Positions 9,084-56,695 of a DNA stretch of 62,643 nucleotides are shown one piece after another. The notes under the pieces are model-generated. The model saw nothing but the letters and a program-made list of their open reading frames with translations. It searched no databases and was not told the origin of the DNA. A program made the position numbers and the translations under genes. Position 1 is the first letter of the stretch, and each line of letters starts with the position of its first letter. Origin of the DNA: an uncultured Bacteroidales bacterium (GTDB lineage: Bacteria; Bacteroidota; Bacteroidia; Bacteroidales; F082); NCBI GenBank assembly GCA_900318265.1, contig ONKA01000027.1, positions 1 to 62,643 on the forward strand, read 5' to 3'.

Positions 9084-9098
9084 ATTGAGGATATTTAC

Positions 9099-9106
9099 TA
9101 TTTTTG
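9099..9106 (+). promoter_or_regulatory. Putative promoter -7 box before the DUF362 gene
   Basis: TATTTTTG followed by C, 22 bp upstream of the start codon. No -33 element at the right distance. Confidence 0.4.
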
Positions 9107-9128
9107 CAACCATATAATAACAAAAACG

Positions 9129-10148
9129 ATGAAGAAAATAGCAATAACCCTTTTGTGTGCTTTGGCCTTTGCCGCCTGCACCAATAACCAACCTGAAGAC
9201 AATAAAAACAACCAAAACAACACGAATATGGAAAACACAGCAAAAGTCTATCTGACTCGCAACATCAGCCCGGAAGCTTTGGTGAACATCTACAAGGCTT
9301 TGGGCGTGGAAGCCAAAGGCCGCGTGGCCGTGAAAATCTCGACCGGCGAGGGCAGCAACCCCAACTATCTGAAGCCCGAACTCATCAAAGACCTTGTGCA
9401 TGAAGTGGACGGCACCATCGTGGAGTGCAACACCGCCTACGGCAACGGCCCTGGCGACGAGAAGGACGAGCGCAACAATTCGGCAGTCCACTGGGATGTC
9501 ATCCGCAGGCACGGTTTCACCGACTACTTCCCTGTCGATATCATGGACGAGTACGACGAAATCCGCATCCCTGTGAAGGACCAGAGGCACATCAAATACG
9601 ACATTGTGGGCGGACATATCGCCAACTACGACTTCATGATTGCCCTCAACCACTTCAAGGGTCACCCGATGGGCGGCTACGGCGGTGCGCTGAAAAACCT
9701 CAGCATCGGCTGTGCCAGCAGCAACGGCAAGGCATACATCCACTCTTCGGGAAAGATGGAGAAACTCGATATGGCCAAGCTTTGGACTCCTGAATACATC
9801 GGCGACCAGGACGGCTTCCTTGAGAGCATGGCGGCAGCAGCCCAAGCAGTGACGAACTACTTTCAAAAGAGACAAGGCATTATCTACATCAGCGTGATGA
9901 ACAACATGAGCATCGACTGCGACTGCGTCGACCATCCCGCCCCCGTGAAGCTTGAAGACTATGGCATCCTTGCCAGCACCGACCCCGTTGCCCTCGACCA
10001 GGCCTGCGTCGACATCATCAACAACCAGCAGGTGACCGCCACCAACGACCCCACCGACCTGCTCAGCCGCATCGACAAGCAACACGGCACCCACACCATC
10101 GAGGGACTGGGAACCAGAAAATACACCATTGTCAGCATTGACAAATAA
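9129..10148 (+). CDS. DUF362 domain lipoprotein
   Basis: The N-terminus is a lipoprotein signal with lipobox AFAAC (Cys17) followed by an Asn-rich linker. The rest is a DUF362 domain with typical motifs KISTGEG, ALNHFKGHPMGGYGGALKNLSIG and ASTDPVALDQACVD. A CDCVDH cluster near the C-terminal third could bind metal or an iron-sulfur centre. DUF362 proteins often accompany ferredoxins, but their reaction is not established. The next gene starts directly after the stop, so the two are translationally coupled. Confidence 0.85.
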   Translation: MKKIAITLLCALAFAACTNNQPEDNKNNQNNTNMENTAKVYLTRNISPEALVNIYKALGVEAKGRVAVKISTGEGSNPNYLKPELIKDLVHEVDGTIVECNTAYGNGPGDEKDERNNSAVHWDVIRRHGFTDYFPVDIMDEYDEIRIPVKDQRHIKYDIVGGHIANYDFMIALNHFKGHPMGGYGGALKNLSIGCASSNGKAYIHSSGKMEKLDMAKLWTPEYIGDQDGFLESMAAAAQAVTNYFQKRQGIIYISVMNNMSIDCDCVDHPAPVKLEDYGILASTDPVALDQACVDIINNQQVTATNDPTDLLSRIDKQHGTHTIEGLGTRKYTIVSIDK

Positions 10149-11192
10149 GTGAAGCAATCTGACCTCATTAAACAATTTGGACGGACTGCTCGTGGTGAAC
10201 GCCTCGAACGCATCAGGAAGTCGCCTCATTTTGTGAACGACAAGTTCCAGAATGAGGAACCGACCACACTATTCACAGGTCAAGGCGGCATGCTGAAGAA
10301 CATTGGGAAGTTCCTCTTTGGGAAAAAGCCGAAGAATAGGATTCCAAAACTGGGCGAGGTCCCCGTTATCAAGGCTGACTTGTATTGCTTGCCCGAATCT
10401 GGTGATTTCTATTTATGGTTCGGGCACAGTTCCTTTTTGCTTCGTTTGGACGGGAAGACCATCCTTGCCGACCCAGTGTTTTACAAAGGCTCGCCCGTTT
10501 CCTTCGTCAATCGGGCCTTTCCGGGGACGAACCTCTACAAACCCCAAGAAATGCCCAAGGAAATCGACTTTCTCCTCATCTCGCACGACCACTGGGATCA
10601 CTTGGATTACCAGACGGTCATCGAGCTGAAAGACAGAGTAAAGAAGGTAGTTTGTCCTTTGGGCGTGGGAGAGAACTTTGAATACTGGGGCTACGACAAG
10701 CAGCAACTCATCGAATTGGATTGGTATGAAAGTGCCACCTCCGACGGCTTGACCTTCCATTGTCTGCCCACCCAGCATTTTACAGGGCGAGGCTTTTGGA
10801 AATCCAAGACGATGCCAGCCGCATGGCTGATGGAATCACCATCGAGAAAGGTCTTTTTCTCTGGCGATGGAGGCTATAACAGTCGCTTCAAACGCTTCGG
10901 GGAGCAGTTTCCCGACATCGACCTCGCCATCATGGAGAACGGTCAATACGATGCCAACTGGAGCCAGATCCACACCATGCCCGAGCAATTGGGGCAAGCC
11001 GTTGCTGAACTCGGTGCTAAACGGTTCGTCACCGTCCACCACTCCAAGTTCTGCCTCTCGAACCACCCTTGGGACGAGCCTCGGAAAAACGAGCGCAAGG
11101 CTGCCGAGCAATATAGGCTTCAGCTTATCACTTGTCAGATAGGCGTATTATTCCTTTTTGATTGTAACTTTGCATCACCAATAGCTAGATAA
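10149..11192 (+). CDS. MBL-fold metallo-hydrolase (UlaG/NAPE-PLD-like)
   Basis: The metallo-beta-lactamase fold is shown by the metal motif SHDHWDH (His146, Asp147, His148, Asp150, His151), preceded by WFGHSSFLLRL and followed by SGDGGY and ENGQYDANW. This is the pattern of UlaG/NAPE-PLD-like hydrolases. The start is GTG at 10149, adjoining the DUF362 stop. The last 15 or so residues (VLFLFDCNFASPIAR) are not family-like and are read across the promoter of the next gene, so the natural stop has probably been lost. The substrate is unknown. Confidence 0.85.
   Translation: MKQSDLIKQFGRTARGERLERIRKSPHFVNDKFQNEEPTTLFTGQGGMLKNIGKFLFGKKPKNRIPKLGEVPVIKADLYCLPESGDFYLWFGHSSFLLRLDGKTILADPVFYKGSPVSFVNRAFPGTNLYKPQEMPKEIDFLLISHDHWDHLDYQTVIELKDRVKKVVCPLGVGENFEYWGYDKQQLIELDWYESATSDGLTFHCLPTQHFTGRGFWKSKTMPAAWLMESPSRKVFFSGDGGYNSRFKRFGEQFPDIDLAIMENGQYDANWSQIHTMPEQLGQAVAELGAKRFVTVHHSKFCLSNHPWDEPRKNERKAAEQYRLQLITCQIGVLFLFDCNFASPIAR
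11165..11172 (+). promoter_or_regulatory. Promoter -7 box inside the 3' end of the MBL gene
   Basis: TAACTTTG followed by C, 20 bp before the ATG of the next gene, lies within the coding frame of the upstream gene. Confidence 0.45.
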
Positions 11193-42595: not shown

Positions 42596-42603
42596 TATCT
42601 TTG
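42596..42603 (+). promoter_or_regulatory. Promoter -7 box of cobalamin riboswitch 1
   Basis: TATCTTTG followed by C, just upstream of the riboswitch. Confidence 0.6.
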
Positions 42604-42608
42604 CCGCC

Positions 42609-42804
42609 GGATTCGGGTTCTTTCAGCCGAAGATTAATAGGGAATCCTGTGAGAATCAGGAGCTATGCCCGTAGCTGTAAGTCCAATCAAGGTCCACAGC
42701 ACCTATGTCACTGATATTCGTTATCGGGAAGACGCCGCGGACTTGGACAAGCCAGAAGACCTGCCCGTTTCCATATTATTCGCAGCTTTCGGGAACAAGA
42801 GCTT
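42609..42804 (+). ncRNA. Cobalamin riboswitch 1 (with downstream L13 hairpin)
   Basis: The conserved core is seen in order: AATAGGGAATCCTGTGAGAATC, TGCCCGTAGCTGTAAG, CACTG, TCGGGAAGACGCC and GCCAGAAGACCTGCC. After the aptamer a hairpin (42784-42803) shows the loop CGGGAAC, which can pair with CCCG of L5, the usual kissing-loop switch. The following 90 bp contain no gene and lead to the CoA-transferase gene. The 42584-42894 spacer holds nothing else. Confidence 0.9.
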
Positions 42805-42894
42805 GGGAATCATAGGGGAACACATTGCTTTCCCGTCTTTCCATTTTGTCCTCTTGCTGCTGTTTTTGAAGTTGAACAAGTAACAACTGTGTTT

Positions 42895-44211
42895 ATGAAG
42901 AAACAGTATCAAGCAGTTACGGCCGAAGAGGCCGTCAAAGTCATCAAGTCGGGCGACCATGTCCACATCAGTTCGGTGTCGAACGTGCCACAATGTCTCG
43001 TCAAAGCCTTATGTGACAGAGGCCGCGCCGGCGAACTCAAAAACGTTTACATCCATCATCTGCACACCGAGGGCGCCGCACCTTACGTCAATCCCGAATT
43101 TGAGGGCATCTTCCAGCACAACGCCTTCTTCGTGGGCGCCAATGTACGCGAAAGCGTGCAGAAAGGCCTGGCCGATTATATCCCCGTTTTCCTTGGTGAG
43201 ACCTCCAAGCTCTATCGCGAACGTTACATCAAATGCAACGTGGCGATGATCCAGGTGTGTCCGCCCGACAAGTTCGGTTACGTGTCGTTAGGCTCATCCG
43301 TCGACGCCACCTTGGCAGCCATGGAAAGTGCCGAGTTTGTCATCGCCGTGGTCAACAAGCATGTGCCGCGTACCTTCGGCGATGCGTTGGTCCACATCAG
43401 CAGGATCAACATCTTTGTTGAAGACGACACCCCCTTGCTCACCGTCGACATGCCCGAGCCCAATGAAGTGGAGAAAACCATCGGACGCTATTGCGCCGAA
43501 TTGATTGAAGACGGTGCCTGCCTGCAAATGGGCATTGGCAGCATCCCAAACGCCATCCTGTCGTGCCTCCACAACCACAAAGACATCGGCATCCACACCG
43601 AGATGTTCTCCGACGGCATCCTACCTCTGGTGAAAGAAGGAGTCATCACAGGCAACAACAAGAAACTCAACAAAGGCAAGATCGTCTCCACCTTTGTGAT
43701 GGGTTCGCAGAAAATATACAATTTCATCGACGGCAACCATGAAGTGTTGCTGATGGACGTGGAATACACCAACGACCCCTTCATCATCGCACAACAGCCC
43801 AAGATGACCTCCATCAACTCGGGCATCCAGATTGACCTGTCGGGGCAGGTGTGTGCCGACTCCTTGGGCGAGCGCATTTATTCGGGTGTGGGCGGCCAGA
43901 TCGACTATGTCTATGGAGCCTCGCGTTCCAAAGGCGGCAAGGCCATCATCGCCATGCCTTCCACCACGCGCAAGGGCATCAATAAAATCGTGCCTACCTT
44001 GGATTTAGGCTCAGGTGCAGTCACCACGCGCAACCACATCCACTGGTTTGTGACCGAATACGGCGCTGTGAACCTTTACGGACGCTCGTTGCAAGAGAGG
44101 GCAAAACTCATCATCTCAGTGGCGCATCCTCAGTTCCAGGAGATGCTCGACGAGGCTGCCTTCAAGCGTTTCGGACCACATTTCCATTATCTATGGAATA
44201 ATATCATCTAA
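42895..44211 (+). CDS. Acetyl-CoA hydrolase/transferase family CoA-transferase
   Basis: A 438-residue family I CoA-transferase of the 4-hydroxybutyrate/acetyl-CoA hydrolase type. Motifs GIGSIPNAIL, IHTEMFSDGILPLVKEG (likely catalytic Glu), GSQKIYNFID and GVGGQIDYVYGASRSKGGKAIIA are all present. It may exchange CoA between acetate, propionate, succinate or butyrate. The cobalamin riboswitch in front suggests that it is needed according to B12 supply, e.g. in the B12-dependent succinate-propionate route. This last step is inference. Confidence 0.85.
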   Translation: MKKQYQAVTAEEAVKVIKSGDHVHISSVSNVPQCLVKALCDRGRAGELKNVYIHHLHTEGAAPYVNPEFEGIFQHNAFFVGANVRESVQKGLADYIPVFLGETSKLYRERYIKCNVAMIQVCPPDKFGYVSLGSSVDATLAAMESAEFVIAVVNKHVPRTFGDALVHISRINIFVEDDTPLLTVDMPEPNEVEKTIGRYCAELIEDGACLQMGIGSIPNAILSCLHNHKDIGIHTEMFSDGILPLVKEGVITGNNKKLNKGKIVSTFVMGSQKIYNFIDGNHEVLLMDVEYTNDPFIIAQQPKMTSINSGIQIDLSGQVCADSLGERIYSGVGGQIDYVYGASRSKGGKAIIAMPSTTRKGINKIVPTLDLGSGAVTTRNHIHWFVTEYGAVNLYGRSLQERAKLIISVAHPQFQEMLDEAAFKRFGPHFHYLWNNII

Positions 44212-44216
44212 TATAC

Positions 44217-44284
44217 ACGTGACTTCGGGACGCGTGACGCAGGACGGGGTTGGTCTCGCGTCTCGTAGTCCCGAGTCTCGTGTC
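44217..44284. repeat. Intergenic palindromic repeat (copy 2, inverted)
   Basis: Reads GTGACTTCGGGACGCGTGAC at the left end and GTCCCGAGTCTCGTGTC at the right. In reverse orientation it matches the 32947-33041 repeat over the words GACACGAGACT, CGGGACT and CCCGAAGTCAC. Confidence 0.75.
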
Positions 44285-44289
44285 AAAAA

Positions 44290-44895
44290 ATGAAAACCGT
44301 GTTCTCTCAAATCAACTTCGTAGAAATCTTTGGCGCCTTCATCGTCATGGCTGCCATCATTGACATTTTCGGCTCCATCCCCATCTTCATGAGCATGAAG
44401 GAGCAGAACAAGACCATCAAGGCGGGGCAAGCCTGTCTGACGGCCTTGGCCTTGTTTTTGGCTTTCTTCTTTGCCGGTGATGCCTTGCTGAAACTCTTCG
44501 GCATCGACGCGGCCTCCTTTGCTGTGGCGGGTGCTTTCGTGTTGTTCATCCTTGCTGTGGAGATGATTCTCGGCCGCGAAATCATCAAAAACGAGGGAGG
44601 CAAAAGCGGTGCCAGCATCGTCCCCATCGCCTTCCCGTTGATTGCGGGTCCTGGGGCGTTGACCGCTCTGCTCTCGTTGCGAGCCGACTATGCCGTTGTC
44701 AACATCATCATCGCCTTGTTACTCAACATCCTGTTGGACTACATCGTCATCAGTCAGCTGGACCGCATCCACAAACTCTTGGGCGATAACCTCATCTTTA
44801 TATTGCGAAAATTCTTTGGTGTCATCCTTTTAGCTATTGCAGTGAATATGTTTGTAAATAATATCCTCGTGATTATTGCGAGTGTACCAAAATAA
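44290..44895 (+). CDS. MarC family integral membrane protein
   Basis: A 201-residue six-helix membrane protein of the MarC/YchE family: FIVMAAIIDIFGSIPIFMSM, then SIVPIAFPLIAGPGALTALL and NMFVNNIL. The function is unproven; E. coli MarC is not an efflux pump as once thought. It stands between two riboswitch-controlled genes but is not preceded by a riboswitch itself. Confidence 0.9.
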   Translation: MKTVFSQINFVEIFGAFIVMAAIIDIFGSIPIFMSMKEQNKTIKAGQACLTALALFLAFFFAGDALLKLFGIDAASFAVAGAFVLFILAVEMILGREIIKNEGGKSGASIVPIAFPLIAGPGALTALLSLRADYAVVNIIIALLLNILLDYIVISQLDRIHKLLGDNLIFILRKFFGVILLAIAVNMFVNNILVIIASVPK

Positions 44896-44899
44896 TCCA

Positions 44900-44907
44900 T
44901 AAATTTG
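44900..44907 (+). promoter_or_regulatory. Promoter -7 box of cobalamin riboswitch 2
   Basis: TAAATTTG followed by C, with TTG 21 bp upstream. Confidence 0.6.
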
Positions 44908-44914
44908 CAGCCGA

Positions 44915-45101
44915 TTTGTGGTGTCCTTCACGGACTCAATAGGGAATCGGGTGAGAATCCCGGACAGTTCCCGCTGCTGTGATGGCCAATCGCCTGCCAC
45001 TATGCCACTGAAAGCCCTGTCTTTCGGGAAGGCGGCAAACGCGAGGCCTCAGTCAGAAGACCTGCCTCAAGTCGCGAAACAAGGCTTCCGGGATAGAGGC
45101 T
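44915..45101 (+). ncRNA. Cobalamin riboswitch 2 (with downstream L13 hairpin)
   Basis: Core elements: AATAGGGAATCGGGTGAGAATC, GTTCCCGCTGCTGTGATG, GCCACTG, TTTCGGGAAGGCG and GTCAGAAGACCTGCC. The post-aptamer hairpin GCTTC/GAGGC (45085-45100) has loop CGGGATA, complementary to CCCG of L5. Downstream, TGACCC/GGGT(G)TCA at about 45126-45144 followed by TTTTT could be an intrinsic terminator. The remaining leader to 45224 has no gene. Confidence 0.93.
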
Positions 45102-45224
45102 GGGATTCTATATAATAACAAGGTGTGACCCGCTGAGGGTGTCATCTGCTTTTTAGGTATTCCAACATTTTTCCAGAAGTTTTTGGGTAATGAACTTAAT
45201 GTCAAACCTATAAACTTTTGTATT

Positions 45225-48200
45225 ATGTATTCAAAATTTTTTACACGATTGTTCCTATTAATAGGGATAATTGGAATGTTTTCGGTTCCTTTGAGAGCTG
45301 ATGAGATTCAGATTGGTTCGGGAACGGGTAAACAGTATTACCTTCCGAGTTACAGTTATTACATGTACTCCCTGACACAGCAGTTATATACTGCAGAAGA
45401 ACTTGGAGGTATTGCGGGAGGCATCAATAGTATAGCTTTCTATAATGATGGCACAACACAAACCCGCAACTTCGACATTTACATGGTCAACACCAACAAG
45501 ACCTGTTTTTCAAGCAGGACTGACTGGGTTCCTGTAACATCAAGCGACAAGGTCTTCAGTGGAAATGTAACCATGACAAAAGGCACTTGGACAACCATCA
45601 CTTTTACGACTCCTTTTGATTATGATGGAACCAATATTGCCATCATGGTGGATGACAATACAAACAGCGCATCTTCGTCAGGCTCACATGCCCAATACCT
45701 GACTTTCAACGTGAGCAACTACCAAAGCATCTATGCCTATAGCGACGGCACAAATTATGATCCATCAAACCCACCTACGACAGGATACTCTTCCTCTTTC
45801 ACTTATCAACAATACAAGAACCAAATCAAGATAGACATTGTGACGGCTCCCGTCACCTGTGCCAAGCCTTCAGGCCTTGAAGCCACAAACATCTCTGCCT
45901 ATACCGCCACCTTGGACTGGACCAAAGGCAGCGAAGACCAGGACACTTGGGAAATCTATCTCACTGATAATGCCAACGACATCCCCAACGACGAGAGCGA
46001 GGCCACAATCAGCGAGAACGTCACAAAGCCTTACACGCTCACCAGCTTGACCTCAAGCACCACCTATTATGCTTACGTGCGCGCCAACTGTGGCAGCACC
46101 AACGGAAAGAGCAAATGGAGCGCAGGATGCCAATTTGCCACCACCTGTATAGCCATTACCGAATTCCCCTTCACCGAAACCTTCGACGACCTCACCACCA
46201 ACGGTGAAATCCCGATGTGCTGGAACAACGAGGAAGGCACCACAACCAATGAAAACTACAGATGGTGCTACAACAGCACTTACGGCACAGGGCATAGTGG
46301 GAAATGCGTCCGATTCGATTCATTCAGCAACACCAGCGGGAACACCAACTTTCTGAAAACACCCGTGATAAGCCTTCCCCAAAGCCCAGCCATGCAGCTG
46401 CGCTTCTGGTACAAGAACCCCAAGGGTGGTGACTTCTCCGTGTTCATTTCAACAGACGGAGGTCAGACCCACGAAACTGCATTGGCCACTGGAATGACCA
46501 ATATCGCTGACTGGACAGAAAAGACCCTTGACCTTTCGGATTACAAAGGCGAGGATAATGTGGTCATTGTGTTTAAGGGAACCTCCAACTATGGCAGCAA
46601 CGATGCCCGCATCTATCTTGATGATGTTAACGTCGAACTGGCTCCCACTTGTCCAAAACAGAACGCATTGCACGTCACTGAACTTACTTCCTCTTCCGTC
46701 ACCTTGGACTGGACAGCAGGCAACAGTGAGCAAGACCATTGGGACCTCTTCATCACCACCGATGCCAGCGTTACGCCTGATGCCAACACTACTCCTACGG
46801 TAACAAACACGAACCAAAAGCCTTACACCCATACTGGCCTCAGTGACGAGACTATATATTTCGTTTTTGTCCGTGCCCGTTGCAGCGACACTGACCAAAG
46901 TGATTGGACCGATGCATGCCGATTCGTCACGCCGCAGATTCCTGTTGTCGTAGATGGCGAACACCCATATAGCAACGACTTTGAAACCAATAATGGCTGG
47001 CTCTTCGTGAATGGTGACCGTCCCAACCAATGGTGGTATGGCTCGGCTGCCAACAACACCCCGAATGGTTCAAAAGCCATTTACATCTCAAACGATGGTG
47101 GAGTAACCAATAGTTATACAAGTTCATCCGAAGCAAAAGGTGTAGTATATGCCACCAAGGCTTTTACTTTCGCGGAAGGCGTATATTCATTTACTTACGA
47201 TTGGCGGGCTAAAGGCAATCAATATTACGATTTTATCCGTGTGGCTTTAGTGCCTGCTTCTTACGAGATAGTAGCCACCGACAACCTTCCTACGGGTCTG
47301 TCCGCCACCAGCTTGCCTAATGGCTGGATTGCTCTTGATGGTGGGTCAAAGCTCATCAATAGCGATGTTTGGAATACCCAAACCGCCGATGAGATTCAAG
47401 TCGCAGCCGGAGATTATAAAATGGTATTCGTTTGGAGAAACCTTTCCGGAGCTGCCAACCAACCCCCAGCGGCCATCGACAACATCAGCATCAGCTATAT
47501 GACTTGTCCGAGACCCACCAATCTTACGGCAAGCGACATCGCTGGCCGCACGGCTACGCTCACTTGGACGGAAAACGGCACCGCCACCAACTGGGTGCTG
47601 CAATATGCCACCAACAATAGCTTCACCGAAAACCTTGTGGAAACCAATGTCAGCGGTGCTGCTACCATGAATCTGTCAGGCCTTACCCCTGAGACAACAT
47701 ACTATGCACGCGTGAAATCCATCCTTGGTAATGAGGAAAGCTCGTGGAGCGATGTTTGTAATTTCACCACTACGGCTACCTGCGAAAAACCCACGTTAAG
47801 CTATGTGACTAACTCCAACACGGCACATAGCGGCGCTGTCAGCTGGACAGGCAACGCCGATAACTACGAACTGATATATTCCACAAAGACCTCATTTGAA
47901 CCTGGTGAGGAAGGTGTTATCCAAATCGACCTTGGAAATGTGAACACCTATACCTTGCAAGACTTAACACCCGAAACTACCTACCGTATCAAGGTGCGGG
48001 CCAACTGTGGAGCGGATGATGGTTATAGCCAATGGAGTAATCAGGTGAGTTTCACCACCACAGCAACTTGTGTTGCACCTTCAGGTTTATCGGCCACAGC
48101 AACCAGTTCAACTATTACCCTTAACTGGACGGCAGGTGCACAAGGCCAAGACGCTTGGGACATCCGATACAAGACGGGTACAAACGAGTACACCTATATT

Positions 48201-51014
48201 CATCTTGACAACCAAACCACTACCAGCTACACAATCACGGGGCTCAACCCTGTCACCACCTACAGCGTGAATGTACGTGCCTATTGTAGCGAAGAAGACC
48301 AAAGCAAATGGGGCTACAACTCCTACAACCAAAACTCCGACTTGTCTATCACCACAGAATGCGGTGCGTTGTCTCTGCCCTATTCTTATGGTTTCGAGGA
48401 TAATTTGGTCACCACATCACCGTATAGCACAAGCAATCCTTATCCGAACTGCTGGAGCCGCATCGCCTACCAATCTGGTTCCTACGGTAACTACACTTAT
48501 TATCCCTTTGCCTTCACTGCCACATCTTCACAGCCCTACGCACATGGCGGGAATGGAGCCAACAGCACTTCAGGACACTGCCTTCGTTTTTACCAAACTT
48601 CAAGCTCCACAAACGAATGCGCTGTCTTACCTGAAATCAGCAGCGAGTATAACATGAATAGTATTCAGATTAGGTTCTGGGGAGCGGTGCAAAGTTCACA
48701 AGGCACCATGCAAATTGGTATCATGGAATCTTTGGCCAATGTCAACACCTTCACCCCCATTCAAGAAGTGAATATTTCAAATACTTACAGCACTGGTTTC
48801 CAGGAATTTACAATTCCATTCACAAACTATACAGGAAATGGCAGATACATTGCTTTTATGTGTGGTACAGGAAACAGTTATGCTTATTTCCTCATCGATG
48901 ACATTACTGTGGAGATAGTGCCGACTTGCTTTATCCCAAATGATTTAGAAGCTAACGAAATCACCGAGAATGAGGCCACGCTGGTTTGGACGCCAAGTGG
49001 CAATGAGTCAGCTTGGAACATCCAATACAAAAAAGCCTCTGACAGCGAATGGAGCGATCCGATTGCCGTTGAAGAGACCACATACACGCTGACCGGACTG
49101 CAGCGCGCCACCGCTTATGAAGCCAGAGTGCAAGCCAATTGCGCCGAGGATGACCAAAGCGACTGGACAAATCCCATCAGCTTCCAAACCGATTGTGGCA
49201 TATGGACTGTAGATGGAGGCAATGCCATCTTTGAAGACTTCGAAAATGTGGATGCGTCCGACTTCCCACCCACGTGTTGGGATAAGTTCAGCCATGAGAT
49301 GTCAGGCTATACCTATTGGTACCTGAATTCGAATAATGGTTTAGGCTCAAGCGCAGCCTATAGTTATTGGAACGAAGGATACGCCTTCTTAGTCATGCCG
49401 AAGATGCACATTAATGGCAACGCCACCCTTTCGTTTGACTATCTCATCGGCTCAGGCGATTACGATGAAAGTTGCTCGGTCGTAGTCTCTACTAATGGAT
49501 TGACCTATAGCGACTTCAGCAATATCGTTTGGGCGGCTGCTGGCAGCAATTCTGGCAATGCTAGCGCCACCGTTTCGTTGTCTGATTTTGATGGCCGAGA
49601 CATCTACATCGCCTTCAAATTCAAAGGCTTGGGTACAAGCGGCTGCACCTGGTATGTTGACAACGTCCAAGTCTATGTAGCTGACAAGATATTCGCCACC
49701 GATGGCGATTGGAATGTTGCCAATAATTGGCAACCCGAAGGCGTACCTGCCATTACAGAAAGCGTCCACATCAACGCGGCGGCTAATATTCCAAACGATT
49801 ACATTGCTATAGTTGACAATATCACCATCGGTAACGGCTCCCTTACCATCGCCAATGGCGGACAATTGAAGCATAACAATGAAGGTGTACAGGCAACGGT
49901 ACAAAAGACCATCAACGGCTACACAGGCAACAAGGACAACTATTACCTGATTGCCTCCCCAATGGCCGAAGACATTGCTCTTGCCAATGTCTCCAACTTG
50001 ACCTCCAACGATTACGATCTCTACCTGTTCGACCAAAGCCAAGAACTTGAATGGCGCAACCAAGAAGACGGCGCTTTCAACAGCCTCAACAACACTGTGG
50101 GTTATCTCTATGCCAACAGCCAGACGGTCACACTTGGCTTCAACGGAGAGCTCATGCCGAGTGATGAGGGTGTGGAAGTGCCGCTCTTATACGACGAATC
50201 CTCTCAATTTGCAGGCTGGAACCTCATTGGTAACCCATTTGCATGCGATGCCTATCTTAACGACGATCTAAATTTCTATAAGATTGACGGTACCGAGGTG
50301 GTGGCCAGCAATAAGGCCGTTTCACCCATGGAAGGTATCTTCGTGGAAGCCACTAGCGAAAGCCAAAACGTCACTTTTTACAGGACGCAGTTCGGCACCA
50401 ACGGCAAAGGCGTCCTTAACCTGAATGCCTTCCAATCTGGCAACCGTGTCGACTTGGCCCGCATACGCTTCAGTGAAGGTCGCAACCTAAGCAAGTTCAT
50501 GCTGCACCGCGATGCTTCCCGACTCTACATCCCTCAGGAAGGCAGAGAATACGCCGTAGTCCATACCGATGGCATTGGCGAACTTCCTGTCAACTTCAAA
50601 GCAACCGAAAACGGCACCTATACCATTAATGTAAGCACTGAGGATGTAGAAATGAGCTACCTCCACCTCATCGACAATTTGACGGGTGAGGATGTCAACC
50701 TTATGGAAAGCCCAAGTTACAGCTTTGAGGCCAAGACAACGGACTATGCGAGCCGATTCCGTCTGGTGTTTTCAACCATAAGCGGGAACTCAGATGGCGA
50801 CAATGAGACCTTTGCCTTCTTCAGCAATGGCAAACTCATCGTCTTGAACGAAGACCAAGCCACCTTGCAGGTCATCGACATGATTGGGCGTGTGCTCAGC
50901 AGCGAGACGCTCAGCGGTAACACCGAAATCAACCTCAACCAACCTGCTGGCATTTACATGCTCCGCCTCGTCAACGGTGAGAATGTGAAGACGCAAAAGA
51001 TTGTGGTGAGATAA
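45225..51014 (+). CDS. Giant T9SS-secreted FnIII / choice-of-anchor surface protein under cobalamin control
   Basis: A 1929-residue protein. A signal peptide (about 1-25, ending near PLRA) is followed by an N-terminal beta-sandwich (about 28-205), FnIII domains starting near 211, 474, 759, 851, 948 and 1233, and large beta-jelly-roll (choice-of-anchor J/cleaved adhesin-like) domains near 307, 573, 1044 and 1322. Then comes a DNITIGNGSLTIANGG region (about 1525) and a C-terminal type A T9SS sorting domain (LQVIDMIGRVLSS, AGIYMLRLVNGENVKTQKIVVR) in the last 75 residues. It should be exported to the cell surface. The B12 riboswitch in the leader links it to cobamide supply. The ATG at 45225 gives the signal peptide. 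Confidence 0.9.
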   Translation: MYSKFFTRLFLLIGIIGMFSVPLRADEIQIGSGTGKQYYLPSYSYYMYSLTQQLYTAEELGGIAGGINSIAFYNDGTTQTRNFDIYMVNTNKTCFSSRTDWVPVTSSDKVFSGNVTMTKGTWTTITFTTPFDYDGTNIAIMVDDNTNSASSSGSHAQYLTFNVSNYQSIYAYSDGTNYDPSNPPTTGYSSSFTYQQYKNQIKIDIVTAPVTCAKPSGLEATNISAYTATLDWTKGSEDQDTWEIYLTDNANDIPNDESEATISENVTKPYTLTSLTSSTTYYAYVRANCGSTNGKSKWSAGCQFATTCIAITEFPFTETFDDLTTNGEIPMCWNNEEGTTTNENYRWCYNSTYGTGHSGKCVRFDSFSNTSGNTNFLKTPVISLPQSPAMQLRFWYKNPKGGDFSVFISTDGGQTHETALATGMTNIADWTEKTLDLSDYKGEDNVVIVFKGTSNYGSNDARIYLDDVNVELAPTCPKQNALHVTELTSSSVTLDWTAGNSEQDHWDLFITTDASVTPDANTTPTVTNTNQKPYTHTGLSDETIYFVFVRARCSDTDQSDWTDACRFVTPQIPVVVDGEHPYSNDFETNNGWLFVNGDRPNQWWYGSAANNTPNGSKAIYISNDGGVTNSYTSSSEAKGVVYATKAFTFAEGVYSFTYDWRAKGNQYYDFIRVALVPASYEIVATDNLPTGLSATSLPNGWIALDGGSKLINSDVWNTQTADEIQVAAGDYKMVFVWRNLSGAANQPPAAIDNISISYMTCPRPTNLTASDIAGRTATLTWTENGTATNWVLQYATNNSFTENLVETNVSGAATMNLSGLTPETTYYARVKSILGNEESSWSDVCNFTTTATCEKPTLSYVTNSNTAHSGAVSWTGNADNYELIYSTKTSFEPGEEGVIQIDLGNVNTYTLQDLTPETTYRIKVRANCGADDGYSQWSNQVSFTTTATCVAPSGLSATATSSTITLNWTAGAQGQDAWDIRYKTGTNEYTYIHLDNQTTTSYTITGLNPVTTYSVNVRAYCSEEDQSKWGYNSYNQNSDLSITTECGALSLPYSYGFEDNLVTTSPYSTSNPYPNCWSRIAYQSGSYGNYTYYPFAFTATSSQPYAHGGNGANSTSGHCLRFYQTSSSTNECAVLPEISSEYNMNSIQIRFWGAVQSSQGTMQIGIMESLANVNTFTPIQEVNISNTYSTGFQEFTIPFTNYTGNGRYIAFMCGTGNSYAYFLIDDITVEIVPTCFIPNDLEANEITENEATLVWTPSGNESAWNIQYKKASDSEWSDPIAVEETTYTLTGLQRATAYEARVQANCAEDDQSDWTNPISFQTDCGIWTVDGGNAIFEDFENVDASDFPPTCWDKFSHEMSGYTYWYLNSNNGLGSSAAYSYWNEGYAFLVMPKMHINGNATLSFDYLIGSGDYDESCSVVVSTNGLTYSDFSNIVWAAAGSNSGNASATVSLSDFDGRDIYIAFKFKGLGTSGCTWYVDNVQVYVADKIFATDGDWNVANNWQPEGVPAITESVHINAAANIPNDYIAIVDNITIGNGSLTIANGGQLKHNNEGVQATVQKTINGYTGNKDNYYLIASPMAEDIALANVSNLTSNDYDLYLFDQSQELEWRNQEDGAFNSLNNTVGYLYANSQTVTLGFNGELMPSDEGVEVPLLYDESSQFAGWNLIGNPFACDAYLNDDLNFYKIDGTEVVASNKAVSPMEGIFVEATSESQNVTFYRTQFGTNGKGVLNLNAFQSGNRVDLARIRFSEGRNLSKFMLHRDASRLYIPQEGREYAVVHTDGIGELPVNFKATENGTYTINVSTEDVEMSYLHLIDNLTGEDVNLMESPSYSFEAKTTDYASRFRLVFSTISGNSDGDNETFAFFSNGKLIVLNEDQATLQVIDMIGRVLSSETLSGNTEINLNQPAGIYMLRLVNGENVKTQKIVVR

Positions 51015-51450: not shown

Positions 51451-51525
51451 GTGGCACCCAAAAGAAGAAGCGACCCCACAAGGAGCCGCTTCCTCACACT
51501 CAAAAAACTATCTATGATGTACCTT

Positions 51526-54500
51526 CTATTTCACTATCACTTTCTTTATCAGTCTATTACCATTCAATTCAATGGAGATGTAATAGACACCTTTATTCAA
51601 GTAACCTAAATCAAGGGTGGTTTCGTTGCCAGTGACTTTACCATTCATGATGCATTGCCCCATAAGGCTAAAGACATGATAATCAAAGCCAGAAGCACCA
51701 TCCATGGTCAGTTTCAACTGGCCATCAGTGGGATTCGGATAAGCCATGAGACCATAATGGTCTTCCTCCAGGCCTTCTACTTGATGCATGATGACGTGGA
51801 CGATGAAATCGACCGACTGACCATCACTGATGGCACGCATCAACACATTGGCGATGGCTTCGTCACTCGTCAATCTATTGAGTGCCAAAATCCTGCCTGA
51901 CAAGCTTGCCGAAAGGGCTTCTTCATTGGAATTGGAAATGAGTTCATACTCAATCAATTCATCAGGGTCATCAGGATCGGTGGCCACTCCATTGAGGTCG
52001 ATGTAAACCAGTTTCGGGAACTCGGTCATGATGACATCCGGCACAGGATGGACTATATAAGGAGGCAAGTCGACAACGGCACCGCCATTGAAATCGTCCA
52101 TGCAGAAATACGCCGGCGTAATCATGCCACTATTGTTGTTCTTCGTAGACGACAAGCTGAACGAGATGGTAGCCACTTCGCCCAAAGGACTGAGGTCAAA
52201 CCACTCCCAAGTGTTCAGGATATAGTCGTCTTCGGGGTTGTCGAAGCGATAGTCGGCAAGATAGAAGTCAAGCGTCCCAACAGTCTGCCCACTAGCGTTC
52301 TTGCCCGTCGCGGTCAGCTTGAACCAGTCAGGGTCGTTGCCCGAGAGGCCGCCGAAAGGTGTCACGGTATTGTCACCTTCAAGCATGTTTTGATATGCCC
52401 ACAAATTGTTGGTAACATAACATCCTGTGACGGTATGCGGTTGGCCGTCAGCGGCATAGACATCCGTCTGGGCGCCATAGGTGTAGGCCACGGCGTATTG
52501 TGCAGAGCCGTCATAGCCGCAACCTGTGGCAGCGGTGTATTGGGCACTCATATAGGTCTGGCTCAAATCGGTGCGATTGGAGGCTGTGAATCCACCCCAG
52601 AAATAGGACGAATAGTAGTTGGTGAAGATCCAGCCATGGCTGAACATCTCGTTGTTGCCTTCCTGAGGTTCCCAGATGCCACTCGGACTCAACTCCACAT
52701 CTTCAAAATCAGCAATATCAACAGTGATGACCACCTCAACTCCTGAAACGCTGACCTCCATGTCAACATGTTTGCCGTTGCTGGTGGCGCGAATCACCAA
52801 GATCCTGTCGTTGAAGGCATTGGGCGTGGTACGGCTTACCGTAAGCACGTCCTCGTCATCGATGGAAGCTGAAACCTCGCTCGGGCAGACCTGAACGGTG
52901 TATTCCATCATCTCGTTGTTGTTGTCAGGGTCATCGAAACACGCACTAATGTCGAAAGTGAACGATTGCGGATACTCGGTGTAGATGATGGGGGCCAATT
53001 GGTTAGACACCACTGGAGGCTGGTCTTCAACGATGCATTCCACAGTGAATGAGGTCTGCACCGACTGCCCATTGCTCTCGGCTTGAAGAACGATGACTGA
53101 AGTTCCTGCCATGTTTTGCAGGCGCTCCACCTCCAACGTGCGACCGTTCAACGTTGTTCCCACTAAAGTGGGATTGCTGTTGGATGCCACCGTGATGACA
53201 ATATCCTCATTCGGGTCATCGGGGTCGTCGAAAGTGTTGGTCAAATCGACGGTTTCAGAGGCTGGATAGGTCTCAAAGACGATGTCATTGATAGGATTGA
53301 CCACCACTGGTGGCAGATTGGTACCGCTAGCATACTCATCGGCACCGGCACAGGGCGTCGTGGAACGGTCTTCTCCATCAATGTCGGTCGTCACATAGGA
53401 TAACGGATTGGCCACGGTGATGCCATCGCTTCCGGTGATATGAAGGTCGTTGTTACCCACAAACTGGGGCGTGCAAAGTGCGGAATGAGCATCGAAACCC
53501 GATGCAGCTGTCCAATCGGCTAGCGTAGCGCAATCCGTGCCTGCAATGATGCCGACATTGCTCCCCGTGAAGGAAACACGGTTGTAATCGCAGAAACGGT
53601 TGTCGGAGTCGCTATTGAAACGAAACACATAACCAGAGGTTTCGTTGACAAACAGGTTGTTGTAGACCCAAAGGTTTTCCCAGCTCTTTTCCACAAACAG
53701 GTTTCCGCAAAGACCCGAGCCTGAGCATTTCGCAGTGTTGTGCGCAAAATAGATATACTCGCTGTCGGCATTGTCGAAATCAAAACAATAACTGTAGTCG
53801 GCGTTGCATTGCAGATTCACAATGTTGTTTCGGATGATGACCGGTTCGGCTGCCGTACCTGTGACAGGACGTAGACGAAACACCGTTGTGTAATTGGTAG
53901 TTCGGGTCACATCGATGACATTGTTCTCGAAGAGACAGCCATAACGGCAACGAAAGACGTCGATGGCATTATAGTCATTACGGATATCGTATGTGCTGTT
54001 GATGGTATTGCCACTCACAGTCACATGGTCGGTAAAGGTGACATACACAGACTTGCTGCTTTGGTTGGTGAAAGTGCAATTCTCAACCAAAAGACCGTCA
54101 TTGTACTGATAGATGTTATGGCCTTGATAATACAGCCCTATGTAACCGTTCACAAAAGCACAATCCACAAATGCGTTATCGGTATCCTGCCATTCGCCGG
54201 AAATCCTATAGACGAGGTTTTTGTCGTTTTCAAGATTGGCCGTCGATACACTACCGACAAAGCGCACATTCTCGAACCGCAAGCCGCTGTTGCCATTCTG
54301 CAACTTCACCACGACAGCCTTGTTATCAGAGGTGGTGGTCAAGGTCATGTTCTCAAAGGTCACGTAGTCGGTGCCTGCGAGTTTTAAGGTGCTGTTGTCG
54401 GTATAGCCGGCGTTGCTTGTTACCACGACCTGCTGGTTGTCGGCGCCCATGCCACGAAAGATGACACGGCTGGTGGCACTAGTGCCATTGATATTGTTGA

Positions 54501-54708
54501 GTATGACGTATTCCTCGTATGTACCAGGAGCCACTTCAAAAACGACCTGTCCTGACACACCTGCGGCAAGCGCCGTAGCTGCCGCACTGAACGAAGTGTA
54601 ATCAGGGTTTTGTGAGGCGTTACTATTAATGGTGTAAGTACCTGAAAGTTGGGCGCGCAAGCTGGTGAAAGCCATTGATAGCGCCAACAAAAAAACTATT
54701 CGTTTCAT
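51526..54708 (-). CDS. T9SS-secreted beta-helix / Ig-like / DUF4465 protein
   Basis: A 1060-residue exported protein. A signal peptide (1-19) is followed by a right-handed beta-helix (about 25-440, NNIVNLQCNADYSY-type turns), two cadherin/Ig-like units beginning PPVVVNPIND and PPVVSNQLAP, and a DUF4465 domain (about 690-880, IADFEDVELSPSGIWEPQEG, WGGFTASNRTDLS, WEWFDLSPLG). Then comes one 99-residue repeat (PPYIVHPVPD) and a type A T9SS domain (LMAYPNPTDGQLKLTM to NGNRLIKKVIVK). It starts 12 bp after the preceding DUF4465 gene and so belongs to the operon led by cobalamin riboswitch 3. Confidence 0.9.
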   Translation of the reverse strand: MKRIVFLLALSMAFTSLRAQLSGTYTINSNASQNPDYTSFSAAATALAAGVSGQVVFEVAPGTYEEYVILNNINGTSATSRVIFRGMGADNQQVVVTSNAGYTDNSTLKLAGTDYVTFENMTLTTTSDNKAVVVKLQNGNSGLRFENVRFVGSVSTANLENDKNLVYRISGEWQDTDNAFVDCAFVNGYIGLYYQGHNIYQYNDGLLVENCTFTNQSSKSVYVTFTDHVTVSGNTINSTYDIRNDYNAIDVFRCRYGCLFENNVIDVTRTTNYTTVFRLRPVTGTAAEPVIIRNNIVNLQCNADYSYCFDFDNADSEYIYFAHNTAKCSGSGLCGNLFVEKSWENLWVYNNLFVNETSGYVFRFNSDSDNRFCDYNRVSFTGSNVGIIAGTDCATLADWTAASGFDAHSALCTPQFVGNNDLHITGSDGITVANPLSYVTTDIDGEDRSTTPCAGADEYASGTNLPPVVVNPINDIVFETYPASETVDLTNTFDDPDDPNEDIVITVASNSNPTLVGTTLNGRTLEVERLQNMAGTSVIVLQAESNGQSVQTSFTVECIVEDQPPVVSNQLAPIIYTEYPQSFTFDISACFDDPDNNNEMMEYTVQVCPSEVSASIDDEDVLTVSRTTPNAFNDRILVIRATSNGKHVDMEVSVSGVEVVITVDIADFEDVELSPSGIWEPQEGNNEMFSHGWIFTNYYSSYFWGGFTASNRTDLSQTYMSAQYTAATGCGYDGSAQYAVAYTYGAQTDVYAADGQPHTVTGCYVTNNLWAYQNMLEGDNTVTPFGGLSGNDPDWFKLTATGKNASGQTVGTLDFYLADYRFDNPEDDYILNTWEWFDLSPLGEVATISFSLSSTKNNNSGMITPAYFCMDDFNGGAVVDLPPYIVHPVPDVIMTEFPKLVYIDLNGVATDPDDPDELIEYELISNSNEEALSASLSGRILALNRLTSDEAIANVLMRAISDGQSVDFIVHVIMHQVEGLEEDHYGLMAYPNPTDGQLKLTMDGASGFDYHVFSLMGQCIMNGKVTGNETTLDLGYLNKGVYYISIELNGNRLIKKVIVK

Positions 54709-54720
54709 TTCACCAAAGCA

Positions 54721-55590
54721 TTATTGTACCATCACTTTCCGAATCACACGGGATCCGCCCCAACTCACAGCGACAAAATAGACGCCTTGATGACAAGAGC
54801 TCAAATCGATTTGAGCCGATCCGTTTTGTGCCTGACCGTTCAACACACATTGTCCCATAAGGTTATAAACCTCATAGTCAAAGCTTTGACTCTCATCCAG
54901 ATGAACCGTAATCATCCCATTGGTCGGATTAGGATAGACCAGCATGGCCATAGCGTCTTCTTCAAGACCCTCCACATAGTTCATAATCACGCGGAAGTTG
55001 AAATCCACATATTGTCCGTCGCTGGTGGCACGCATGGCAATTTCAGCGTCAGCTTGCTCAGCGGTCAAGCGCTCAAGCATCAGAATCCTGCCGTTCATGG
55101 TGGCTGAAACCGCCGCCTCGTTGGAGTTGGACAGCATGGTGTATTCTATCAGTTCGTCCGGGTCATCGGGGTCGGTAGCCACACCGTTGAAGTCGATATA
55201 CACTAACTTGGGGAACTCGTCCATCACCACATCCGGAACCGGAGTGACGACATAAGGCGGCTCGTCGATGACAGCGTTGAGGATGACATGAACATTGAAG
55301 TTGACATACTGTCCGTCGCTGGTGGCACGCATGGTGAGGTCAGCAGTTGCTTGATTGGCGTTTTGGCGCGTCATGACCAAGATCTTGCCGTTCATCGTGG
55401 CCGTCAAGGCAGAGGGATTCGAGTTGTTGACGATGCTGTAGGCGATGTTCTCATCCGGATCGTCGGGGTCGGTGGCCACACCGTTGAGATTGACTTGTTG
55501 CGTCTGCGGGTACTCGTTGAAGACTACGTCAGAAACGGAATTGACGATATAAGGCGGCTCATCAACGACGACGTTGAGAATGACGTGCAC
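54721..55590 (-). CDS. C-terminal fragment of a broken DUF4465/T9SS protein
   Basis: An open frame of 289 residues without a proper start. It contains two 99-residue repeats (PPYIVNSVSDVVFNEYPQ... and PPYVVTPVPDVVMDEFPK...) and a type A T9SS sorting domain (MAMLVYPNPTNGMITVHLDE to GGSRVIRKVMVQ). It is the continuation of the DUF4465 gene fragment at 55612-56427, from which it is separated by a damaged repeat. It is in the same register as that fragment; only the piece between them is shifted. Whether it is translated is uncertain. Confidence 0.75.
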   Translation of the reverse strand: MHVILNVVVDEPPYIVNSVSDVVFNEYPQTQQVNLNGVATDPDDPDENIAYSIVNNSNPSALTATMNGKILVMTRQNANQATADLTMRATSDGQYVNFNVHVILNAVIDEPPYVVTPVPDVVMDEFPKLVYIDFNGVATDPDDPDELIEYTMLSNSNEAAVSATMNGRILMLERLTAEQADAEIAMRATSDGQYVDFNFRVIMNYVEGLEEDAMAMLVYPNPTNGMITVHLDESQSFDYEVYNLMGQCVLNGQAQNGSAQIDLSSCHQGVYFVAVSWGGSRVIRKVMVQ

Positions 55591-55724
55591 AGTGGCCGCT
55601 CATCGTGGCCGTCAAGGCAGAGGGATTCGAATTGTTGACGATGCTGTATGCGATGTTCTCATCTGGATCGTCGGGGTCGGTGGCCACACCGTTGAGGTTG
55701 ACTTGTTGCGTCTGCGGGTACTCG
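55393..55724. repeat. Near-identical repeat pair at the break in the DUF4465 gene
   Basis: The 124 bp at 55393-55516 and 55601-55724 differ at only about four positions. An intact repeat step is 297 bp (55096 to 55393), but this step is 208 bp, so about 89 bp are missing. This breaks the frame. Confidence 0.75.
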
Positions 55725-56427
55725 CACCACCACCATTGAAGTTGTCCATGCAGAAATAAGCCGGCGTAATCATATTGTAGCCACTGCCTCTTGATGACGA
55801 AAGACTAAAGGAAATGGTAGCCACATTACCCAAGGGGCTGAGATCGAACCACTCCCAAGTATTAAGGACATAGTCTTCCTCATTGTTGGCAAAGCGATAG
55901 TCGGCGAGATAGAAATCCAATGTGCCCACAGTCTGCCCACTGGCATTCTTACCTGTCGCCGTCACCTTAAACCAGTCAGGATCATTGCCTGTAGATCCTC
56001 CGTAGGGTAACTCGCCATACCCGCCTTGAAGAATGTCCTGATAAGTCCACAGATTGTTGGTGACATAGCAGCCTGTGACGGTATGTAATTGCCCATCGGT
56101 GGCATAGACATCCGTCTGCACACCCATGGTATATGCCACTGCATATTGGGTAGAGCCATCATAGCCACAGCCTGAAGCCGCAGTATACTGGGCATTAAGA
56201 CCCGTTTGACTCAAATCCGTGCGGTTGGAGGCCGTGAAACCGCCCCAATAGCCGTTTTGTGTATTATTGGTGAAAAGCCAGCCGCCGCTGGACATTTCAT
56301 TGGATCCAATAGGGGGTTGCCAAATACCGTTACTGCCGAGTTGGACGTCTTCGAAAGTGGCTGGATCCTGGGCAAAAGCCCAAGCAGCCAAAAAAAGCGC
56401 GAGGGTTAAGGATAAAAGCTTACGCAT
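55612..56427 (-). CDS. DUF4465 domain protein fragment, first gene after cobalamin riboswitch 3
   Basis: A signal peptide (AAWAFAQ, about 1-19) is followed by a complete DUF4465 domain (about 22-232: ATFEDVQLGSNGIWQPPIG, WGGFTASNRTDLSQTGLN, WEWFDLSPLGNVATISFSLSS, AYFCMDNFNGGG). It is about 75 percent identical by eye to the DUF4465 domain of the downstream 1060-residue protein. After NGGG, at about 55724, the frame runs out of register (ASTRRRNKSTST) and stops at 55612. The proper continuation lies at 54721-55590. The gene is either a pseudogene, phase-variable, or misassembled. Confidence 0.8.
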   Translation of the reverse strand: MRKLLSLTLALFLAAWAFAQDPATFEDVQLGSNGIWQPPIGSNEMSSGGWLFTNNTQNGYWGGFTASNRTDLSQTGLNAQYTAASGCGYDGSTQYAVAYTMGVQTDVYATDGQLHTVTGCYVTNNLWTYQDILQGGYGELPYGGSTGNDPDWFKVTATGKNASGQTVGTLDFYLADYRFANNEEDYVLNTWEWFDLSPLGNVATISFSLSSSRGSGYNMITPAYFCMDNFNGGGASTRRRNKSTSTVWPPTPTIQMRTSHTASSTIRIPLP

Positions 56428-56504
56428 AACTTATTTGTTTTAATGCATTAAACGAATAATGCAAGACCATCGCAAGCAGCTATGCTAATTGCCGCGCTTA
56501 GCGT

Positions 56505-56680
56505 CGCCCTTGTTCCCGAAGGCTTGCAATTGAACTCATGGTTTGGCAGGTCTTCTGACTCGCCCGAACCTGTCGCCTTCCCATCTGGATGAGCCAGACA
56601 GTGGCTTTGTTTGACAGGCCTTACACGGACTTACAGCAGCGGGCACTGTTGCCGATTCACACGGCATTCCCTTGGCCAAA
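56505..56680 (-). ncRNA. Cobalamin riboswitch 3 (with downstream L13 hairpin)
   Basis: On the minus strand the core runs AAGGGAATGCCGTGTGAATC, GTGCCCGCTGCTGTAAG, GCCACTG, ATGGGAAGGCG and GTCAGAAGACCTGCC. The hairpin GCCTT/AAGGGC (about 56507-56524) with loop CGGGAAC follows. The region between it and the DUF4465 ATG (56428-56504) is a plain leader without a gene. Confidence 0.93.
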
Positions 56681-56687
56681 CTCGGTG

Positions 56688-56695
56688 CAAAGATA
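56688..56695 (-). promoter_or_regulatory. Promoter -7 box of cobalamin riboswitch 3
   Basis: TATCTTTG followed by C on the minus strand, immediately before the aptamer. Confidence 0.6.

Follow-up and report, generated by a model that had tools for sequence, protein, structure and literature searches.

Gut bacteria compete for vitamin B12, which is in short supply in their communities; according to the available passages of PMC12751083, the proteins that capture it in Bacteroides thetaiotaomicron are lipoproteins. Two of them, BtuJ1 and BtuJ2 (BT_1491 and BT_1957), are products of btu operons and show enrichment in vesicles, as the same passages describe. The B12-binding BtuJ family was published in 2025-26 and corresponds to DUF4465, as stated in PMC13398666 and PMC12751083. 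In the available part of PMC13398666 (Clarke et al. 2026; D5EK51, Pan, Fluta, 656, Cylst and Halo), B12 binding is reported for eight DUF4465 members, more than 70% of the family are described as lipoproteins and the remainder as periplasmic, and the terms T9SS, type IX, secretion and sorting are mentioned 0 times. A second accessory protein of Bacteroides, BtuH, is also a surface B12-binding protein with N-terminal Ig-like domains; the accessible text of PMC8941943 describes its binding domain as being without known structural homologs and contains the term DUF4465 0 times.

We analysed a stretch of 62,643 nucleotides from an uncultured Bacteroidales bacterium (the window). As proposed by an earlier, sequence-only reading, a promoter element, a cobalamin riboswitch and two DUF4465 genes separated by 12 nt (54709-54720) form a single unit on the minus strand. 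The -7 element TATCTTTG (56688..56695, minus strand), read from the sequence, follows TAnnTTTG, the Bacteroidota consensus; of the 44 DUF4465 genes of the genus for which a riboswitch motif was found, 43 have this element in the corresponding position. The aptamer (RF00174; 56528..56695, minus strand) scored 87.9 bits (E 2.4e-20) with the covariance model, exceeding the gathering score of 31.5 bits, and was also recovered in the genome search. Among 57 DUF4465 genes of the genus that were examined, 44 have the motif within 900 nt and 12 of the other 13 sit farther down a riboswitch-led gene row, so that the linkage is kept in 56; at the type-1 locus L041 no riboswitch was found within 17.5 kb. 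Score and conservation together rule out a chance match. Between aptamer and start codon, RNAalifold analysis of 21 distinct type-2 leaders predicted a hairpin (56460..56529, minus strand) that may serve as expression platform. As to the suggestion that this is the L13 hairpin, a kissing pairing between L5 and L13 was not established from the leader alignments. Type-1 and type-2 leaders diverge 3' of the aptamer. Downstream of the second gene, a terminator scan detected a hairpin of 14 pairs followed by TTTT (51464..51495, minus strand); 13 terminator-like sites were found in the region against 5.3 expected, and a sigma-70 scan returned 9 sites against 7.6 expected.

The downstream gene, gene B (51526..54708, minus strand), codes for 1060 aa. 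Profiles place a DUF4465 domain at residues 700-873 and a T9SS type A sorting domain at residues 990-1059 (PF18962, 43.4 bits; TIGR04183, 39.9 bits). A signal peptide recognized by eye, a beta-helix-like region (residues ~21-410) and Ig/cadherin-like repeats precede DUF4465, and one further repeat lies between this domain and the tail. The full-length model (pLDDT 74.1) contains both the beta-helix-like N-terminal region and the Ig/cadherin-like repeats, and a whole-protein Foldseek search with this model gave mainly Ig-chain matches plus DUF4465 entries among the best 50 matches listed. The Pfam Beta_helix profile had no match in gene B; seven of 35 type-1 members do match it. The anticipated joining of DUF4465 to a beta-helix, Ig/cadherin repeats and a T9SS tail is thus seen in gene B, where the first two elements come from the model and not from Pfam Beta_helix, and not in gene A as assembled.

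Both genes belong to DUF4465 (PF14717/IPR027828) with scores above the curated cut-off of 25 bits (gene A, 164.4 bits; gene B, 179.5 bits). The DUF4465 domain of gene B is predicted to adopt an augmented beta-jellyroll fold (pLDDT 93.3) that matches B12-bound 9HMU (Foldseek E 3.2e-20, TM 0.79, the fold also of the proteins of Clarke et al.) and 9FCT/9QPM (E 1e-17 to 5e-19, rmsd 2.4-2.5). All nine PDB matches of this domain at E<=0.001 are DUF4465 proteins. By phmmer, the BtuJ1 structures 9qpm/9fct were matched by gene A with E 1e-22 and by gene B with 3e-27 and 6e-27. The profile search and the structure prediction that had been suggested as checks therefore both came out in favour of DUF4465. 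In contrast, the link that the same reading had drawn between DUF4465 and BtuH has to be abandoned, since DUF4465 is BtuJ. BtuH has a different binding domain: every phmmer match up to E 0.1 and every Foldseek match up to E 0.001 obtained here is a DUF4465 protein, with no BtuH domain among them. On this basis we reject membership in BtuH and correct the label to BtuJ-type.

The upstream gene, gene A, is interrupted in the assembly. Its first piece (55612..56427, minus strand; 271 aa) carries a signal peptide, again recognized by eye, and DUF4465 (aa 58-230), and its reading frame terminates out of frame within the frame-shifted part of the first repeat. The second piece (54721..55590, minus strand; 289 aa) contains repeats, and its aa 218-288 match the T9SS type A sorting domain (PF18962, 64.1 bits; TIGR04183, 64.2 bits). 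Since these are separate open reading frames, gene A as assembled does not code for one DUF4465-T9SS protein, and the claim of two such genes stands for gene B only. The stop between the two pieces could mean that gene A has decayed, that its tail-less DUF4465 piece is periplasmic or degraded, and that gene B alone is functional. We find this reading rather doubtful. The break site lies in tandem repeats (297-nt unit, with a Cadherin_3 match under its cut-off) that are 96% identical over 130 nt, and three congeners (G004, G057 and G066) contain intact two-gene copies with an upstream frame of 674-680 aa from stop to stop. The type-2 genes L084, L089 and L090 also lack a tail, each having lost it in the repeat array, whereas 35 of 35 type-1 genes are tailed. 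This pattern fits repeat misassembly in metagenome assemblies.

The sorting domain common to gene B and the second frame of gene A is that of T9SS type A cargo with a Por_Secre_tail. Nutrient binding by T9SS cargo has a precedent in HBP35 of Porphyromonas gingivalis, whose ligand is haem. Unlike other cargo of this type, the proteins described here combine a cobamide-binding-type domain with control by a cobalamin riboswitch. In the genus, 20 of 26 type-2 proteins carry the tail in addition to all of type 1. It is also present in 28 of 37 DUF4465 relatives outside the genus, among the best matches listed, so that type IX capture of the vitamin may be widespread if these proteins bind cobamides. 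The genome encodes SprA of the T9SS machinery (SprA_N, E 4.0e-164) and at least 150 T9SS tails; with tails this frequent, carrying one says little by itself about a dedicated B12 route. With BtuJ1 and BtuJ2 the proteins share the fold, the HI-loop Thr and Tyr and cobalamin riboswitch control. They differ in being multidomain, in their tandem genes, in the T9SS tail, in signal peptides that by eye have no lipobox cysteine, and in their contig, where the search for TonB plug domains had no hit. As judged from sequence, what is new here is the delivery, with DUF4465 joined to a T9SS tail in place of a lipid anchor. Since a domain of a B12-binding family lies under a cobalamin riboswitch and is linked to such a tail, these sequences are best read, as proposed, as a T9SS-exported form of B12 capture.

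We infer cobamide binding, secretion and regulation for the products of genes A and B, and think it likely that the locus is a B12-repressed unit for type IX-secreted, surface-displayed cobamide-binding proteins. When cobamides are scarce, the aptamer would be empty and the genes would be expressed. Sec would take the proteins over the inner membrane and T9SS over the outer one; after loss of the C-terminal domain they would end up either surface-attached or free. Their jellyroll loops would then bind a cobamide for transfer to an outer-membrane uptake system, while the beta-helix and cadherin-like parts would probably be stalk or adhesive parts that keep the domain away from the cell. Candidate uptake partners in the same regulon are a BtuG homologue and a BtuF-like protein encoded elsewhere in the genome. 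The BtuG homologue matches 8p97 (E 6.5e-61), which is BtuB3G3 (PMC10404256), and the BtuF-like gene lies under another of the genome's own cobalamin riboswitches. Of the genome's five own riboswitches, three precede a unit in which genes with a T9SS tail occur (binomial 0.002, computed post hoc with an assumed background of 6%). A DUF4430 protein (transcobalamin C-terminal-like; Pfam match 63.2 bits) adjoins the BtuG homologue and the BtuF-like gene. In a search against PDB sequences it had two hits, and in each the T9SS tail was the part that matched best; we therefore rejected it as a provable transcobalamin relative, for which the support is the Pfam match and a passage of PMC4350170. None of the 15 TonB plug domains found in the genome is on the contig of the window, so that genes for capture and for uptake lie apart. 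Methylmalonyl-CoA mutase is present, and PF02965 of B12-dependent MetH was not found in the genome (89% complete).

T9SS cargo can be released, and released proteins might serve as decoys or as traps shared by the community, denying cobamides to competitors instead of feeding the producer. This is improbable, since in PMC12751083 BtuJ vesicles as sole cobalamin source fed the wild type, and since the genome has its BtuG homologue and BtuF-like protein likewise behind a cobalamin riboswitch.

For the binding site we considered four contact positions of BtuJ1, namely Tyr146, Asn241, Thr242 and Tyr245, taken from PMC12751083. Genes A and B share the HI loop MITPAYF and have Trp in place of Tyr146 and Ile in place of Asn241. 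Among the T9SS-type domains of the genus, Thr242 and the HI-loop Tyr (Tyr245) are kept in 59 of the 59 that reach the column, Tyr146 is replaced by Trp in 60 of 60, and Asn241 by Ile, Leu or Val in 59 of 59. Of 31 distant DUF4465 relatives, 30 have Tyr at the first of these replaced positions and 29 have Asn at the second. In the alignment, B12-bound D5EK51 (9hmu) has neither Asn nor Thr in the HI loop, and these two residues are thus dispensable for binding. That the BtuJ fold was kept while tight B12 binding was lost, leaving T9SS adhesins co-regulated with B12 genes by the riboswitch, appears improbable: the two fixed replacements, the retention of Tyr and Asn in distant relatives and the adhesin-like look of the beta-helix and cadherin-like parts speak for it, but Thr242 and Tyr245 are conserved, D5EK51 binds B12 as described, the solved DUF4465 structures 4jqr (Trp at the Tyr146 position) and 4e9k (Leu at the Asn241 position) carry similar residues, and the riboswitch linkage persists. 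With two of four contact residues changed across the T9SS forms of the genus, the ligand could be another cobamide than B12.

In its broadest form, which we advance tentatively and would not bet on, secreted cobamide binding would mean that rumen Candidatus Alcium has shifted cobamide capture to T9SS as a riboswitch regulon, consisting of the tandem DUF4465 genes, a giant fn3 protein and the DUF4430 protein by the BtuG homologue and BtuF-like gene. The DUF4465 pocket would have been re-tuned by the changes Tyr to Trp and Asn to Ile/Leu/Val for, for example, adenine-type cobamides, and the proteins would form an extracellular antenna with its own specificity. If cobamide binding is true, vitamin capture is also served by type IX secretion, and the two contact positions at which the genus has uniformly departed from BtuJ1 offer a handle on how DUF4465 chooses among cobamides.

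Two more cobalamin riboswitches (RF00174) are located on the plus strand of the window. The first (42598..42782), in the same B12 island, precedes a CoA-transferase-family gene (42889-44211) and MarC (44290-44895). The second (44902..45083) precedes the gene (45222-51014) for a T9SS-tailed protein of 1930 aa in which profiles recognize fn3 and choice-of-anchor J domains, and of 67 stretches from the genus, 19 contain a match to this protein at E<=1e-30.

The two DUF4465 genes lie on the minus strand in one unit (56695-51526): a cobalamin aptamer with a TAnnTTTG element at its 5′ end, then gene A (56427-54721) and, 12 nt downstream, gene B (54708-51526). We confirmed the sequence-only reading of riboswitch and both genes as one unit from the aptamer's RF00174 match (87.9 bits, E = 2.4e-20), the TAnnTTTG element and the short gap. 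Since terminator-like hairpins stand on both sides, after the preceding gene (56751-56734) and after gene B (51495-51464), the unit looks self-contained.

The same reading had tentatively tied the domain to BtuH, another surface B12-binding protein of Bacteroides. This assignment had to be replaced: DUF4465 is the BtuJ family, and DUF4465 proteins account for all nine PDB fold matches at E ≤ 0.001. The domain of gene B as modelled (pLDDT 93.3) matches B12-bound D5EK51 (9hmu) at E = 3.2e-20 with TM 0.79, and matches 9qpm and 9fct, structures of the Bacteroides thetaiotaomicron lipoprotein BtuJ1, with rmsd 2.4-2.5. For the domain of gene A, sequence comparison with BtuJ1 chains gave E about 1e-22. 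Published work reports that eight diverse DUF4465 members bind B12 (Clarke et al. 2026, PMC13398666), that BtuJ1 has a Kd near 0.15 nM, and that four conserved residues form hydrogen bonds, Tyr146, Asn241, Thr242 and Tyr245 in BtuJ1 numbering (Biochem J, PMC12751083).

Gene B encodes 1060 residues. A signal peptide was read by eye, and the full model (pLDDT 74.1) shows a beta-helix-like region together with Ig/cadherin-like repeats; DUF4465 (179.5 bits) and a T9SS sorting domain of type A are also present. We refer to such beta-helix-first genes as type 1 and to DUF4465-first genes as type 2. Gene A is of type 2, with DUF4465 near the N-terminus (164.4 bits), repeats (a Cadherin_3 match falls below its cut-off) and then a sorting domain (64.1 bits). 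It had been described as one DUF4465-T9SS protein, but the window sequence contains two ORFs instead of one open frame. The first piece (56427-55612) runs out of frame past the DUF4465 domain and then stops; the second (55590-54721) holds the remaining repeats and the tail. The repeat unit measures 297 nt, whereas copies 1 and 2, 96% identical over 130 nt, start 208 nt apart; unit 1 is therefore shortened, and the missing length is not divisible by three. Three congeners that share this gene pair (G004, G057, G066) have the upstream gene open over 674-680 residues, stop to stop. The tail is missing from six of 26 type-2 genes and from none of 35 type-1 genes; of the six, the ORF list shows four with a break within the repeats (window, L084, L089, L090) and two truncated where their contig ends (L092, L105). 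Decay of gene A seems the less likely cause of the break, and misassembly of near-identical repeats the more likely one.

PF14717 occurs in 64 of 99 genus genomes and RF00174 in all 99. We fetched 67 stretches to cover the genus matches listed for genomes other than the window's; together with the window they contain 73 DUF4465 ORFs: 35 of type 1, 26 of type 2, nine of lipoprotein type (L093-L101) and three fragments (L065, L070, L103). Distances to the riboswitch were counted for the 57 type-1 and type-2 genes with a recognised start, a set without the lipoprotein-type genes, the fragments and the type-2 genes of L060, L064, L102 and L104. Of these genes, 44 have a riboswitch core no more than 900 nt away, accompanied by TAnnTTTG in 43 cases. 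The other 13 are all type 1. Five are the second gene of a pair (window, L059, L060, L063, L064); the L060 contig ends before any riboswitch, and cmscan places one before the L064 type-2 gene. Seven (L048, L049, L056, L058, L071, and L074 and L075, two contigs of one genome) lie downstream of a riboswitch, a CoA-transferase (94-99% identical in all seven stretches) and MarC (in all seven, partial in L071). For L041 no riboswitch was found. The motif also lies 235-559 nt upstream of eight lipoprotein-type genes; the ninth has a contig end about 400 nt from its start. Ruminant guts are the source of many assemblies among the named relatives. The riboswitch-linked set of T9SS-tailed BtuJ-type proteins is real and conserved; their cobamide binding, export and regulation we infer.

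The lipoprotein-type members make up a third form within the genus: by eye their start resembles that of a lipoprotein, DUF4465 is C-terminal, and DUF4988 was present in all three members scanned.

We tabulated the four BtuJ1 contact positions across 106 domains. The Tyr146 place is Trp in 60/60 genus T9SS-type domains; in the 59 that are not cut before the other three positions, Asn241 is replaced by Ile, Leu or Val, and Thr242 and Tyr245 are kept throughout. Six relatives sharing the T9SS-type architecture also carry Trp with Leu or Val. The other 31 relatives have Tyr (30), Asn (29), Thr (30) and Tyr (31) at the four positions. The nine lipoprotein-type members have Tyr, Ser, Gln and Tyr, Ser-Gln replacing Asn-Thr in the HI loop. 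Judged from these alignments, two of the four published contacts have changed in the genus T9SS-type clade and are fixed there. Simple loss of binding is disfavoured by B12-bound D5EK51, whose aligned HI loop has neither Asn nor Thr. The alignment also shows Trp in 4jqr where BtuJ1 has Tyr146, and Leu in 4e9k where it has Asn241, changes that would bear on the question to the extent that these two proteins bind B12. The changed contacts could reflect another cobamide preference, or weaker binding. Here a known binding domain is combined with a new route of delivery and a pocket particular to the clade.

Among the best 80 matches of a genome scan (79 loci), 37 were judged from their contigs to lie outside the genus, and DUF4465 was confirmed in all 37. 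With T9SS tails in 28 and PEP-CTERM in four of these best-match proteins (E ≤ 0.001), the sequences indicate at least three modes of delivery for DUF4465, the third being the lipid anchor. Within this sample, 26 genes have a riboswitch ahead of them at most about 450 nt from the open frame (22 by motif, four by cmscan), and six have one further upstream on the same strand (L168, L169, L171, L180, L183, L184); three frames reach the stretch edge (L141, L165, L181), and two have no riboswitch (L164, L166). Proteins ending in PEP-CTERM, some with motifs below cut-off, come from Phycisphaerae, Desulfobacterium, Planctomycetota, Methyloversatilis and Rhodocyclaceae assemblies (L153, L164, L168, L173, L180), four of the five with a cobalamin riboswitch upstream. 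In a deltaproteobacterial assembly (L175:3228-3615), a DUF4465 gene is preceded by a tandem of cobalamin and c-di-GMP-I-GGC riboswitches, both on the same strand.

The literature searched, with subscription papers and preprints outside its scope, yielded no description of a T9SS-exported DUF4465, and further searches of titles and abstract starts did not find T9SS-B12 capture. One paper found mentions T9SS, vitamin B12 and a riboswitch together (PMC9723704); its riboswitch passage concerns a Flavobacterium psychrophilum TonB transporter.

The window's genome has five RF00174 matches, including that of the DUF4465 unit. One at 42598 is followed by an acetyl-CoA hydrolase/transferase-family (CoA-transferase-family) gene and MarC (42598-44895 with the riboswitch), and one at 44902 by a 1930-residue T9SS-tailed protein (44902-51014 with the riboswitch). 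At E ≤ 1e-30 this protein is matched in 19 of the 67 stretches, in some weakly (29-34% identity); riboswitch presence was checked in part of the 19. Near its slot, seven congener stretches have a type-1 DUF4465 gene that follows the same row of riboswitch, CoA-transferase and MarC. On contig C18 a riboswitch (L009:10610-10798) precedes the class III anaerobic ribonucleotide reductase gene nrdD (8402-10513), which suggests a B12-independent backup enzyme. Methylmalonyl-CoA mutase is present in this genome, and MetH gave no match in it. On contig C15 a riboswitch and operon (L008:5828-11138; C15:71827 onward) comprise a DUF4430-T9SS protein, a second T9SS protein, a BtuG homologue and a BtuF-like protein. 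The BtuG homologue matches 8p97 at E = 6.5e-61, an entry identified as BtuB3G3 in PMC10404256. The DUF4430 protein consists of three DUF4430 stretches plus a T9SS tail; DUF4430 is described in PMC4350170 as the domain at the transcobalamin C-terminus. Of 40 genus genomes sampled, 11 gave a DUF4430 match, eight of them over cut-off.
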